This document shows, one piece after another, positions 2,866 to 37,517 of a DNA stretch of 39,192 nt. The notes beneath the pieces are model-generated. The model saw only the letters and a list, made by a program, of their open reading frames with translations. It did not search any database and had not been told where the DNA came from. Source of the stretch: Deltaproteobacteria bacterium. Its GTDB lineage: Bacteria > Desulfobacterota > Desulfarculia > JACQYL01. Positions within the stretch are counted from its first letter, which is position 1. Each line of letters opens with the position of its first letter. The position numbers and the translations under genes are program-made. The stretch spans positions 1-39,192 of the forward strand of contig JACQYL010000084.1 of assembly GCA_016208165.1 (NCBI GenBank). Reading direction: 5' to 3'.

Positions 2866-4116
2866 ATGATCGACTTTGCTCACGAGAAAAACCGTTTTGA
2901 AAGCGATTGCACGGCCTGCGGGCAATGTGTAACCGTGTGTCCCATCATCCCCTTCACCGGCATCAAGGACGACGATCCGGGGCGCATCATGGCTGCGGTG
3001 CTCGACGTATTCCGTCACGGAAGATCGAACGATGTTGCCAATATGCGCATTTACTCGTGCATGAGCTGCCTGACTTGCCGGCCCGAGTGCCCTGAAGATC
3101 TCGATCCCAGTCTCGGCTTGAGTCTCGCGAGAGGCATACTCCGTGAAGCCGGCGAACCTATGCCCAGAGGCCTTTCCTTTCTGCTGCCCGAAACCGGGTT
3201 CAACCTGATGAAAGCCATTGAAGCGATCCAAATCAAACCGGAAGAGCGCCCCTGGATCACGGACGTAAGGAGCGATGATGTCACCGAAACCGATACGGTG
3301 ATCTTTACCGGCTGCACCGGCATCATGCAGCCCGATTTGGTGATGACCGCGAGGGATCTCGTTCGACGCGCCGACCCGACGGTCCAGGTTCTGGGAGGGG
3401 TGGATTACTGCTGCGGCGACACCAACCTCCGGGCCGGAAATCCGGAAGCCGCCAAAGATCACTTCTATCGCCTCGTGGATGCGTTAGATCGCTTTTCTCC
3501 AAAAAACGTCCTGCTTCTGTGTCCCACCTGCAAAGCGTTTTTTGACCTGTATCAGCCTGACACGGATTGGTCCTGGCGTTTCATCACCGAGTTTCTGGCC
3601 GAACACCTGGACAAACTCGGGCGCCCCGAAGAAACAGTCGCCACGGTTACCATTCACGACGCCTGCCATCTCACCCGCGGAAAGCATCCCGACCTGGAAT
3701 CTCCCAGGAAGCTCCTTGAGGCCATACCCGGCATCGAGATCATCGAAATGAAGAACAGCCGCGAAACCACTCTTTGCTGTGGCGGGTCCGCTATGGCGGC
3801 CGTTGGAAAGCCCGGACTGGATTTCCGCTCTAAACGTCTCGAAGAGGCGCAGGAAACCGGAGCTGAAATCATGGCGGTCTACTGCCCGGGCTGCCAGTCG
3901 GTCTTCGTCCCGGAAATGGCGAAACTTCCCATACGGATCGAGTCCATCATCAAACTGCTTGGACGCTCGGTGGGCGTTTTTCACGAAGACAAACTCCTGA
4001 GGTTCATGAGCTATCGCGACGCCGGGAAAGTCCTTTCAGAGGCTGGAGGATGCATCGAAATGAGCGAGCTTCCGAAAGAGAAACTGACGGGGTTTGCTTC
4101 CAAGTACTTCAAGTAG
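2866..4116 (+). CDS. HdrD/GlpC-like Fe-S oxidoreductase with two CCG domains
   Basis: 416 residues starting at ATG 2866 behind GGGGA at 2856-2860. The N-terminus has two [4Fe-4S] motifs, CTACGQCVTVCP (residues 17-28) and CMSCLTCRPECP (about 65-76), as in ferredoxin-like electron-entry domains. Two cysteine-rich CCG domains follow: first GCTG, then YCCGD and LCPTC, then DACHL, LCCGGS and YCPGC. This is the arrangement of HdrD, GlpC and related subunits that reduce disulfides or pass electrons between ferredoxin-like carriers and quinones; no haem or FAD domain is present. In corrinoid clusters such a protein could reductively reactivate Co(II)-corrinoid or link methyl transfer to electron flow. 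That role is inferred from position only. It is the third gene in the block, 104 bases behind the UroD-fold gene, with a repeat in the gap. Confidence 0.88.
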   Translation: MIDFAHEKNRFESDCTACGQCVTVCPIIPFTGIKDDDPGRIMAAVLDVFRHGRSNDVANMRIYSCMSCLTCRPECPEDLDPSLGLSLARGILREAGEPMPRGLSFLLPETGFNLMKAIEAIQIKPEERPWITDVRSDDVTETDTVIFTGCTGIMQPDLVMTARDLVRRADPTVQVLGGVDYCCGDTNLRAGNPEAAKDHFYRLVDALDRFSPKNVLLLCPTCKAFFDLYQPDTDWSWRFITEFLAEHLDKLGRPEETVATVTIHDACHLTRGKHPDLESPRKLLEAIPGIEIIEMKNSRETTLCCGGSAMAAVGKPGLDFRSKRLEEAQETGAEIMAVYCPGCQSVFVPEMAKLPIRIESIIKLLGRSVGVFHEDKLLRFMSYRDAGKVLSEAGGCIEMSELPKEKLTGFASKYFK

Positions 4117-4294
4117 ACCGTCCATAAACAAGTTGAAACAGCGGCATGGAACATATATATTCTCAGGCCGTTTAGGAGATTATTCAAATACGAATGTATG
4201 GACGCCGAATCGTGTGGAAGTTCTTCTGTACCATGACATGGGGAAGTTCCACGCGGACCGGCCTCCGCAGCTCACACGGAAAGGACAAACAGTC

Positions 4295-4765
4295 ATGACA
4301 CCCCAACAGATGGAACAGGAAGCCCGTGACCTCATGCTGCGAGGGCACCACTGAAGCCAGGCCGTTCTGACGGTCGGTCTGAAAAAACTGGGACTACAGG
4401 ATGAAGGAAATCTGATTCGAGCCATGGCGGCACTGGGAGGCGGAATCGCATCCTCGGGAGGGCCTTGCGGAGCCCTGACCGGGGGCATAGCTCTTTTAGG
4501 TCGACTATTCGGCAAAATCGACCCCGAAGAAAAAGACGATCCGAGGATGTGGAAGGCGGCTTTTAAATTCTACAAGATGTTTCAGAGCGAGATCTGCGGT
4601 GAGAAGGGCAGCGTCGACTGCCGGGACATAGCATGCGTGGACTGGCGAGACCGCGAGGCCGCCGCCGGCTTTTACGGCGGCGAAGGTCGTCTGGTGTGCG
4701 GAGGCAATACCGGAAGGGCCGCTGGAATCCTGGGAGAGGTCATCGACAGGTATCTGGAAGGATAA
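4295..4765 (+). CDS. C-GCAxxG-C-C family protein read through an in-frame UGA, probable selenoprotein
   Basis: ATG 4295 follows AAAGGA at 4280-4285. The frame runs 19 codons, meets TGA at 4352-4354, then continues open in the same frame to TAA at 4763-4765. Both sides belong to one family: before and at the UGA the text is RGHH-U-SQAVL, where family members have a Cys followed by xQAVL, and after it come GGGIASSGGPCGALTGG (Cys58) and a C-terminal cysteine cluster (Cys101, Cys109, Cys114, Cys135). The UGA therefore replaces the first conserved cysteine, as expected for selenocysteine. A hairpin starts four bases after the UGA. The total of 156 residues fits the family. Its function is not established; neighbours suggest redox work beside the HdrD-like protein. 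The alternative is a nonsense mutation, with the downstream part starting at ATG 4424. Confidence 0.8.
4358..4381 (+). promoter_or_regulatory. SECIS-like hairpin directly after the in-frame UGA
   Basis: CAGGCCG at 4358-4364 pairs with CGGTCTG at 4375-4381 over seven base pairs (one G-U), leaving a ten-base loop. An alternative inner stem pairs GCCGT at 4361-4365 with ACGGT at 4370-4374 around a TCTG loop. Bacterial SECIS elements sit just behind the Sec UGA within the coding region. The loop here begins about 11 bases after the UGA, somewhat closer than in the E. coli fdhF example, so the match is suggestive only. Confidence 0.55.
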
Positions 4766-4778
4766 CGCCTAGAAATGT

Positions 4779-4812
4779 GGGGCGGGGGTGAAACCCGCCC
4801 CTTGTATCTTTA
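4779..4812. terminator. Rho-independent terminator behind the selenoprotein gene
   Basis: GGGGCGGG at 4779-4786 and CCCGCCCC at 4794-4801 form a perfect eight-pair GC stem with a seven-base loop, followed by TTGTATCTTT. It lies between convergent genes ending at 4765 and 4832 and fits termination of the + strand cluster. Confidence 0.85.
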
Positions 4813-34365: not shown

Positions 34366-34884
34366 GAATTCACCTCAAAAATGGTCTGCGTTTGGTTTCT
34401 CTAAAAAACAGCGAGAGTTTCCAACGGGAATGAAATGCCCACTGTTGGACGGCGTATTCTTCGAGGAGAGGGAAGGTCTACCGACGCAACAATTCAATAG
34501 GATCATAGACCTACAAGCTGGGGACTATAGGAAAGATGCTCGGGGCATGTCAAGAGATTAAACAGGGCACTGGAAAGGGAATTCGTCGAACCGAGGCCCG
34601 CCGGCAAAGGGGCCTCCAATGGCTGAAGACCTTTTCACTTGTGTTGCTTTTGGACCCCGGATATAATCTCGCCGTTTCAGCGCGGAACATGACTCGTCCG
34701 ATGTGCGTAAAGGCCTTTCCAACTCGCTCGAAGAACGGCAAACAAGAAATTCTTGTACATAGCGAGTCCGACGATCCGGCTTTTGCAGATCACGAAATAC
34801 CGAGAACCAAAGATCTACAAAAACGCCGGATAAACAACCACGTCGAGACGAGTAAACCGGTTCTTTAGACAGGAAGGAGACGTT
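34366..34884. other. Divergent intergenic region
   Basis: About 520 bases between the TPR/SEC-C gene (-) and the nitroreductase (+). A good promoter toward the nitroreductase is listed separately. A long minus-strand open frame enters from 35511, but it is antisense to the nitroreductase and is rejected. No gene is supported here. Confidence 0.55.
34639..34667 (+). promoter_or_regulatory. Probable promoter of the nitroreductase gene
   Basis: TTGTGT at 34639-34644 and a perfect TATAAT at 34662-34667 are 17 bases apart. The predicted start near 34674 leaves a leader of about 210 bases before ATG 34885. The -35 matches only in its first three bases. Confidence 0.5.
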
Positions 34885-35550
34885 ATGAAGTTCGTGGACG
34901 TATTCAAAGGCAGACGCAGCATTCGCAAATACAAGCCGGATCCGGTGCCCCGCATGCTCATCGAAGAGATCCTGTCGGAAGCTCGCTGGTGCCCCTCGTG
35001 GGCCAACACCCAACCGTGGGAAGTGATGGTGGTCCAGGGAGAAGCACTGGAAAAATTCAGGCAGGCTCAGCGCGAAAAAGTGGCCGCCCAGGCGCCCCAC
35101 AACCCCGACGTGGCCACACCTGACAAGTTTCCCAAAAAGTGGCATGACCGGGTGGTACAGATAGGCGCGTGCTGTCTCGACGCTCTCTGCATCCAGCGGG
35201 AAGACCGCGAAGCCAGACAACAGTATTATTCCGACATGTTCAGTCTGTTCGGCGCCCCCGCCATGGTCCTGTTTCTGTTGGACGACCAGCTCAACGTGCC
35301 TTACGGCATGATGGACATCGGAATCTACATGCACGGGGTGTGTCTCGTGGCCAGAAGTAAGGGCCTGGGTACGTTGGTTCTCTCGACCGTCATTCGATAT
35401 CCGGACGTCTTCCGCTCGTTGCTGCCCATCCCGCAAAACAAGCGCCTGGTGATGGGGATAGCGATGGGTTATCCCGACGAGTCCGCCCCCATAAACAATT
35501 TCGAGCGGCAACGCGTACCGATCGAAGATTTTACCATGTGGGTCGAATAG
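34885..35550 (+). CDS. Nitroreductase-family FMN oxidoreductase
   Basis: 221 residues with the nitroreductase-fold FMN contacts: FKGRRSIRKYKPDPVP at the N-terminus (Arg-Arg-Ser-x-Arg), ARWCPSWANTQPWEV, and the C-terminal glycine-rich VMGIAMGYPDE. The MDIGIYMHGVCLVARSKGLGT helix forms part of the dimer core. Such enzymes reduce nitro, quinone or enone groups using NAD(P)H and work as homodimers. Two cysteines (ACCLDALC) in the middle are unusual for the family but not clearly a metal site. ATG 34885 follows GGAAGGAG. It converges with the molybdoenzyme gene with only 11 bases between stops. The physiological substrate is not predictable. Confidence 0.92.
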   Translation: MKFVDVFKGRRSIRKYKPDPVPRMLIEEILSEARWCPSWANTQPWEVMVVQGEALEKFRQAQREKVAAQAPHNPDVATPDKFPKKWHDRVVQIGACCLDALCIQREDREARQQYYSDMFSLFGAPAMVLFLLDDQLNVPYGMMDIGIYMHGVCLVARSKGLGTLVLSTVIRYPDVFRSLLPIPQNKRLVMGIAMGYPDESAPINNFERQRVPIEDFTMWVE

Positions 35551-35561
35551 GAACCGGCGTC

Positions 35562-37517
35562 TCAGCGTTTGCTGATTTTGACCAGGGTTTCGTTTACCGC
35601 CGCCGTCGGCCCCAGGTCACTGATCACGGCTTCCCGTAAACGATTGACGCCGCCGCGATCGTTTTTCCACATGGAGGGCCCGAGTTCAACCACATCGGAC
35701 CGGGTCTTCTCGGAGGTGTTGGCTACAGCCTCGATCCGGTCCAGGCTGCTTTGCACCCAGATGCGATCTCCATCGTTCAAACCGAGATCCGACATGACGG
35801 ACGGGTGAAGACTCACCGTGGGAATCGTCTCCGCGTCCTCCTCGAGCAACTGCGAGTTGAGAAACGATGGCTTCTTGACCATTAGAAGCGTAAGGCCGTG
35901 CTTCCGCTCCGGTCTTCCTTCGTATTCCGTGATGAAGTGGAACTTGCCGTCGGAAGTGCGGAAGATTCCATTCTCATACGGAACGACCGGTTGCGTCCTT
36001 TTGACCGGGCCTTTTTTCACCTCTTCCATGGAGACGCCCTGATCGGCCAGGGGACCCCAACAGCGAGAAATCCAGTCCCAGGGTGAACCTGCCAATGCGT
36101 CTCCAAACCCCATCTTTTCAGCAAGTTTCTGCAAAATCCAGAAGTTGCTTCTGGTCTCGCCCCTGGGCGGCACGGCCGCGGTCACCGGTCCCACGCAAAG
36201 ATGTCCATGGCTGTGGATCACATCGTCCTCTTCCAGGTAGGTAGTCACAGGCAAAATCAGGTCCGCGCACTCGGCCGTCGCGGTCATGAACTGCTCCGTC
36301 ACGATTACGAAATCGCGCTCACGAAGGACCTTCCTCAAATGGTTCGAGTCCGGCGCTGTGGCCACGGGATTGAACATGGCAATCCACGCCACCCGGATGG
36401 GCGGGGCCTCGCATTTTGCAATTTCGTCGGCCAGTCGGGGAAGTAGAATTCTCCGGGGTTTCACGAGTTGAACGCCTCTTTCTTTGGCCTTGTTCATCTC
36501 CTCGCGGAATATTTCCGTTCCAAATGGAAACTCCATATTGTAGAGGTTCGCCCCGCCTCCCCGGACCCCAATGTTACCGCTCATGAACGCCAGCGCATGG
36601 ACCAGTCGCGAATGAGCGCCTCCCTGTTTCCACCAGCTGAGCCCCAAACCCATATACGTCGAGCAGGGACCGTCATCCCAGTAAGCGGAAGCCAGATGCG
36701 AAACCGCTTCTTTGGTCACGTCGGCTTTATCCAGCAGGTCTTCGTCTTTATAACGATCGAGAAGCGCCGAATACCCTTCCCAGTCATGGCCCCGTTCACG
36801 TGCAAAATCCGGTGCCTCGTCTTGTCGCCGGCGAATCTCCCGCGCCACGGCTATGGCAAGATACCCGTCTCCGCCGGGCCGCAGTGCAATATGCCGATCC
36901 GCGATCATGGCTGTTTCAGTATAACGGGGATCGACGACGGTCAGCTTGGCGCCGTTTTTTTGGGCCTCTTTGATGTATGGAATGAGATGCACATTGGTGA
37001 CCGAGGGATTTCTTCCCCAGAACACGATGTTCTTCGAATGGAGCATGTCCTCGGGCGCGTGCAGTAGACACGCCCCAAAATCGTTTATCTGAGCCGCCTG
37101 GAGCGCATCGATGGAAATGCCCCCGGCGGTGACGGTGCTCCCTCCAAGCTGAATCCAGAACACCCGGGGCATAACGAGGTTGAGCAGAGAGAGCGAACCG
37201 GAGTATTGGGCCCACAGTGTTGAAAGCGGCCCGCTTTCCTCTCGCGTCGATCTCAACTTGTCCGCCGCAAGATCGAGGGCCTCATCCCAGGAGATACGCT
37301 CGAAATCGTCTCCCTTACGCACTAAGGGCGTTTGAAGTCGATCGGGACTCGCATACCGCTTCACATAGGCGTTCCCTTTTGCGCAAAGAAATTTTCGGGT
37401 ATACGGGTTGCGTGGGTCGGCCTTCTGGGACACGATCTCCCCGTCTTTGACCTGGACCAGAATACTGCATGTACACGGACAGTCGCGTGTGCAAGTAGTG
37501 GGTACCTGTTTCTCCAT
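35562..37517 (-). CDS. Molybdopterin oxidoreductase, DMSO-reductase family
   Basis: 651 residues. The N-terminal [4Fe-4S] domain has CTRDCPCTCSILV and the fourth ligand in FLCAKG, a C-x3-C-x3-C spacing. Pterin-binding and domain motifs follow: ISWDEALDLAADKL, NIVFWGRNPSVTN, KLTVVDPRYTETA, LALRPGGDG-like ALRPGGDGYLA, and the C-terminal cap with VSLHPSVMSDLGLNDGDRIWV. Where many relatives have Cys or Sec as metal ligand (GGIC), this protein reads AGGISID, so a serine (or other) ligand is likely. There is no Tat signal, so it is cytoplasmic. No electron-transfer or membrane subunit is adjacent. ATG 37517 follows GGGAGGAC. Substrate unknown; acetylene-hydratase-like and thiosulfate-reductase-like groups are alternatives. 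Confidence 0.9.
   Translation of the reverse strand: MEKQVPTTCTRDCPCTCSILVQVKDGEIVSQKADPRNPYTRKFLCAKGNAYVKRYASPDRLQTPLVRKGDDFERISWDEALDLAADKLRSTREESGPLSTLWAQYSGSLSLLNLVMPRVFWIQLGGSTVTAGGISIDALQAAQINDFGACLLHAPEDMLHSKNIVFWGRNPSVTNVHLIPYIKEAQKNGAKLTVVDPRYTETAMIADRHIALRPGGDGYLAIAVAREIRRRQDEAPDFARERGHDWEGYSALLDRYKDEDLLDKADVTKEAVSHLASAYWDDGPCSTYMGLGLSWWKQGGAHSRLVHALAFMSGNIGVRGGGANLYNMEFPFGTEIFREEMNKAKERGVQLVKPRRILLPRLADEIAKCEAPPIRVAWIAMFNPVATAPDSNHLRKVLRERDFVIVTEQFMTATAECADLILPVTTYLEEDDVIHSHGHLCVGPVTAAVPPRGETRSNFWILQKLAEKMGFGDALAGSPWDWISRCWGPLADQGVSMEEVKKGPVKRTQPVVPYENGIFRTSDGKFHFITEYEGRPERKHGLTLLMVKKPSFLNSQLLEEDAETIPTVSLHPSVMSDLGLNDGDRIWVQSSLDRIEAVANTSEKTRSDVVELGPSMWKNDRGGVNRLREAVISDLGPTAAVNETLVKISKR

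Follow-up and report, generated by a model that had tools for sequence, protein, structure and literature searches.

The analysed stretch of DNA, 39,192 nucleotides long and referred to below as the window, carries at 4295-4765 of the forward strand a gene of the C-GCAxxG-C-C family (PF09719), which is very probably a true selenoprotein gene. The gene is a single frame of 156 codons, the lone internal stop of which is the TGA at 4352-4354 (+). With this codon read as selenocysteine (Sec), the product has 156 residues, MTPQQMEQEARDLMLRGHHU20SQAVL...RYLEG*, with Sec at residue 20. When U is read as C, the protein matches PF09719 over residues 19-148 with an E-value of 1.1e-19 (71.1 bits), and the alignment of its relatives to it is unbroken from residue 1 to about residue 152. 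The two sides of the TGA thus lie in one frame and belong to one family, as the preliminary description of this DNA had stated. Among 15 close homologues, the invariant positions include C20, C58, C109, and C135 (Cys/Sec).

The ribosome-binding-like element GGAAAGGA at 4278-4285 (+), read from the sequence, is located 9 bases 5' of the ATG at 4295, a position in favour of translation starting ahead of the UGA. In the alignment with the homologues, residues 1-19 are conserved from M1 onward, which likewise argues that the translation start precedes the UGA. An ATG-started frame of 113 amino acids is also present from 4424, and an ordinary gene caller would report this truncated frame, which lacks the active residue. 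The same frame would be available for a restart if the UGA had arisen recently by nonsense mutation of a Cys gene, or were a sequencing error in one, with translation either stopping after 19 residues or resuming at ATG 4424; such a restart, however, leaves the conservation of residues 1-19 unexplained. A terminator-like stem-loop follows the gene at 4779-4801 (+), as found by a consensus scan only, with 2 sites versus 1.0 expected in shuffles.

Upstream and on the same strand are genes for an MtgC-like corrinoid protein (925-1587), a URO-D-like methyltransferase (1538-2761), and an HdrD-like iron-sulfur protein (2866-4116), on the basis of which a redox role within this cluster had been suggested. 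The Sec-containing protein could accordingly be a redox partner dedicated to the corrinoid/methyltransferase/HdrD-like operon, a proposal that is compatible with the Sec assignment and agrees with the shared strand, but which we consider distinctly unlikely. A gap of 178 bases, with a weak sigma-70-like site at 4133-4161, separates the selenoprotein gene from these genes. When the neighbours within 9 kb of 59 homologue loci were clustered, none of the other families was present at more than 12 of them. For the HdrD-like protein, a relative was found within this distance at only one other locus, about 6 kb away. Because the neighbourhood is not conserved in the homologous loci, there is no support for a functional tie of the selenoprotein gene to the HdrD-like and corrinoid genes.

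Residue 20 and the hairpin downstream of the UGA

The homologues were collected from 98 genomes, namely that of the window and 97 relatives, 65 of which gave a match; a scan of genome contigs gave 70 loci, some of which are the same places. Many of the rows from the 98-genome search contain exactly one internal TGA. At residue 20, the 68 distinct copies have either U (45) or C (23) and no third residue, a count for which two search patterns were used, one of them containing Cys-Ser-Gln, so that third-residue forms are possibly under-sampled, and the other unbiased. The UGA thus falls at a conserved Cys position of the family, in agreement with the preliminary description. On the tree, residue 20 switches between U and C about five times; the branch of the window protein in it is long (1.24) and its placement unsure.

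One TGA, at locus L037, was considered as a residue-20 Sec codon and rejected, since it sits at the C-terminal end and is probably a normal stop. Tandem pairs of the gene are present in some of the relatives (L122 7085-8067, L123 7102-8097, L126 6532-7509, L127, L128, L130, and L131), consisting of a Cys and a Sec copy or of two adjacent Sec copies; the window has a single copy.

In the UGA copies (44 distinct), bases 13-31 after the U of the UGA are paired in 89.5% of cells, versus 73.7 ± 2.0% in a null in which synonymous codons were re-drawn from the same genes (z 7.8). The folding energy of the same bases exceeds that of the codon-preserving null with a z of -8.0. In the 24 Cys copies, the corresponding values are 43.8% and 46.8% (null), and the hairpin is absent. 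The excess of pairing in the UGA copies and its absence from the Cys copies indicate that the hairpin is tied to the UGA and not just to the protein sequence. The covariation of the pairs is modest, with A-U replacing G-C at one pair in five copies; its score is matched by 2 of 500 shuffles, and a slide of -1 column scores similarly with far fewer paired cells.

In the window, the SECIS-like hairpin in register with the one conserved in the UGA homologues lies at 4365-4383 (+) and consists of UUC-U-GAC, the loop GGUCG, and GUC-U-GAA. It forms 6 of the 8 pairs, has an energy of -4.5 kcal/mol (P 0.066 by itself, not significant), and is weaker than those of the relatives. When the window is folded freely, it is beaten by a competing minimum-energy hairpin slightly upstream, GGCCGU-UCUG-ACGGUC at 4360-4375 (+). 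If some twelve bases directly 3' of the UGA are occupied by the ribosome, the hairpin at 4365-4383 would be favoured; when the fold is calculated from base 12 after the UGA onward, the hairpin in the conserved register is the predicted structure. The earlier observation of a hairpin after the UGA stands, but the one then noted was probably the free-fold structure at 4360-4375, while the conserved one is that at 4365-4383. The formate dehydrogenase of the same genome has the hairpin GTGGCA-GGTCT-TGCCAC after its UGA, and the loop of the window hairpin likewise begins with GGUC. An Rfam search of 4200-4800 gave no match.

Selenium machinery and the reading of UGA in the genome

The genome encodes tRNA-Sec (selC, with a TCA anticodon), selB (384 bits), selD (362 bits), and selA (536 bits). 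A search for the four genes had been proposed as a check, and while selB, selC, and selD support Sec insertion, selA was found with its frame disrupted in the assembly. The single copy of selA found (L016 1337-2571, corresponding to 84608-85842 of contig C48 of genome G000) is split over two frames, with about 49 codons (HMM 51-99) missing and no run of N.

Two further genes contain TGA at Sec sites. In SelD (L018, about 1370-1507, contig C58 of G000), it occupies the known Sec/Cys position, KAAG*ASKIPPG (KAAGUASKIPPG), and is followed by an NNNNN gap beyond which the frame changes. In the formate dehydrogenase-like FdhA (L142, contig C66 of G000, 34838-36103), it is at the canonical Sec site, CARLUHSSTVAGL, with a GGUC-type hairpin downstream. 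The FdhA and SelD codons show that UGA has been kept at other Sec sites of this genome. The HesB/Fe-S_biosyn family, the Sec form of which was to serve as an extra control, was looked for in the genome and not found.

The state of selA raises the alternative that Sec was inserted until recently and that selA has since been lost, so that the UGA genes (FdhA, SelD, and the window gene) now end early. The missing HMM positions 51-99 of the only selA, and the frame change there, are what such a loss would leave behind. However, the assembly is composed of 142 contigs and contains a second short defect, the NNNNN inside selD, so that an assembly collapse is the simpler explanation, and neither FdhA nor the window gene shows any further damage. 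We therefore consider an assembly fault more likely than a true loss of selA, and early termination of all these genes extremely unlikely.

The nonsense mutation or sequencing error introduced above can be weighed on the same evidence. The long branch of the window protein, the weakness of its own SECIS-like hairpin, and the broken selA would all be consistent with it, in addition to the frame available from 4424. It would, on the other hand, have to coincide with 44 other distinct copies, in many genomes, that have UGA at the same column, in a genome where FdhA and SelD keep UGA at Sec sites and in a gene the frame of which is otherwise intact. Such an event is thus very unlikely.

The assignment of Sec to residue 20, already made in the preliminary description, is strengthened by the U/C exchange at this position, the UGA-specific hairpin at the level of the family, the Sec genes, and the UGA at the Sec sites of FdhA and SelD. 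In the mechanism that we propose, tRNA-Sec and SelB would decode the UGA at 4352-4354 as selenocysteine, aided by the hairpin just downstream; it is from the above observations that we infer Sec insertion in vivo.

Family, fold, and the putative redox site

The score of 71.1 bits exceeds the PF09719 gathering cut-off of 27 bits, while those for TIGR01909 (41.5 bits) and NF045669, the DVU_1555 family (80.4 bits), are under the respective cut-offs of 47.4 and 103. On these scores, the protein is a member of the Pfam family and of no named NCBIfam subfamily. Sec forms of the C-GCAxxG-C-C family are already known, as had been noted from the outset: they are among the selenoproteins listed in two reviews (PMC9312934, PMC13188914), and the NCBIfam name of TIGR01909 contains "(seleno)protein". 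The window gene is thus real but ordinary in kind, and it extends this selenoprotein family by a divergent member.

The AlphaFold model of the protein, calculated with 54 sequences, has a mean pLDDT of 91.7. Its only clear match among solved structures is the split-Soret cytochrome c (1h21), with a Foldseek probability of 1.00 and an E-value of 0.074; VIA-align gives a Z of 14.3 and an rmsd of 2.7 over 139 residues, the next best Z being 4.1. The relation is also visible in the sequences, as a sequence profile match to split-Soret cytochrome c has an E-value of 9e-4 and a split-Soret cytochrome c matches PF09719 with an E-value of 2.4e-15. No relevant PDB entry was retrieved by sequence with L010, a further PF09719 protein encoded by the genome. 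The cysteines of split-Soret homologues, fetched by fragment search, align directly at residues 20, 58, and 135, while that at residue 109 is shifted by one, beside the C of VLCHIS.

The title of the 1h21 structure entry mentions a novel iron centre. The structural work on split-Soret cytochrome c reportedly proposed an iron-sulfur centre on cysteines of the protein, missing from the aerobically purified crystal. By analogy, we lean toward U20, C58, C109, and C135 forming a shared redox site of one Sec and three Cys. The product of the window gene would then have the split-Soret cytochrome c fold without the haems, with Sec20 and the three Cys at the four cysteine positions of the family, and its site would carry out redox work. 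This site is likely either a selenenylsulfide/selenol pair of Sec and Cys or an iron-sulfur centre containing Sec. The more specific proposal that Sec20 and the three Cys directly ligate an iron-sulfur centre like that of split-Soret, which would make it a natural Sec-ligated iron-sulfur redox protein, is rather unlikely. The link to split-Soret nevertheless provides a testable idea of the function of the one-Sec, three-Cys site, and of whether a selenolate can naturally ligate an iron-sulfur centre.

Three known systems can be compared with the window protein. With the C-GCAxxG-C-C family (PF09719/TIGR01909), it shares residues 19-148, the four Cys/Sec positions, and the CGAxxG motif (CGALTG, 58-63). 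The N-terminal part of the HUGP/GUXX-star fusion selenoprotein (NF045501) matches residues 5-122 with an E-value of 5.8e-10, and, to judge by its name and the coordinates of the profile, residue 20 is where the Sec of its H-U motif would be placed. The second Sec domain fused in NF045501 is, however, missing from the window protein, the score of which is far under the 325-bit cut-off. Split-Soret cytochrome c (1h21, NF047622) has the same fold as the window protein, gives a match to PF09719, and retains the four family cysteines. Two CxxCH haem sites and an N-terminus resembling a signal distinguish the split-Soret cytochromes from the window protein, which has neither and starts with MTPQQMEQEARDL; the latter is small and all-helical, and, since it has no signal peptide, probably cytoplasmic. 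At residue 20, the first Cys of split-Soret cytochrome c is replaced by Sec in the window protein.
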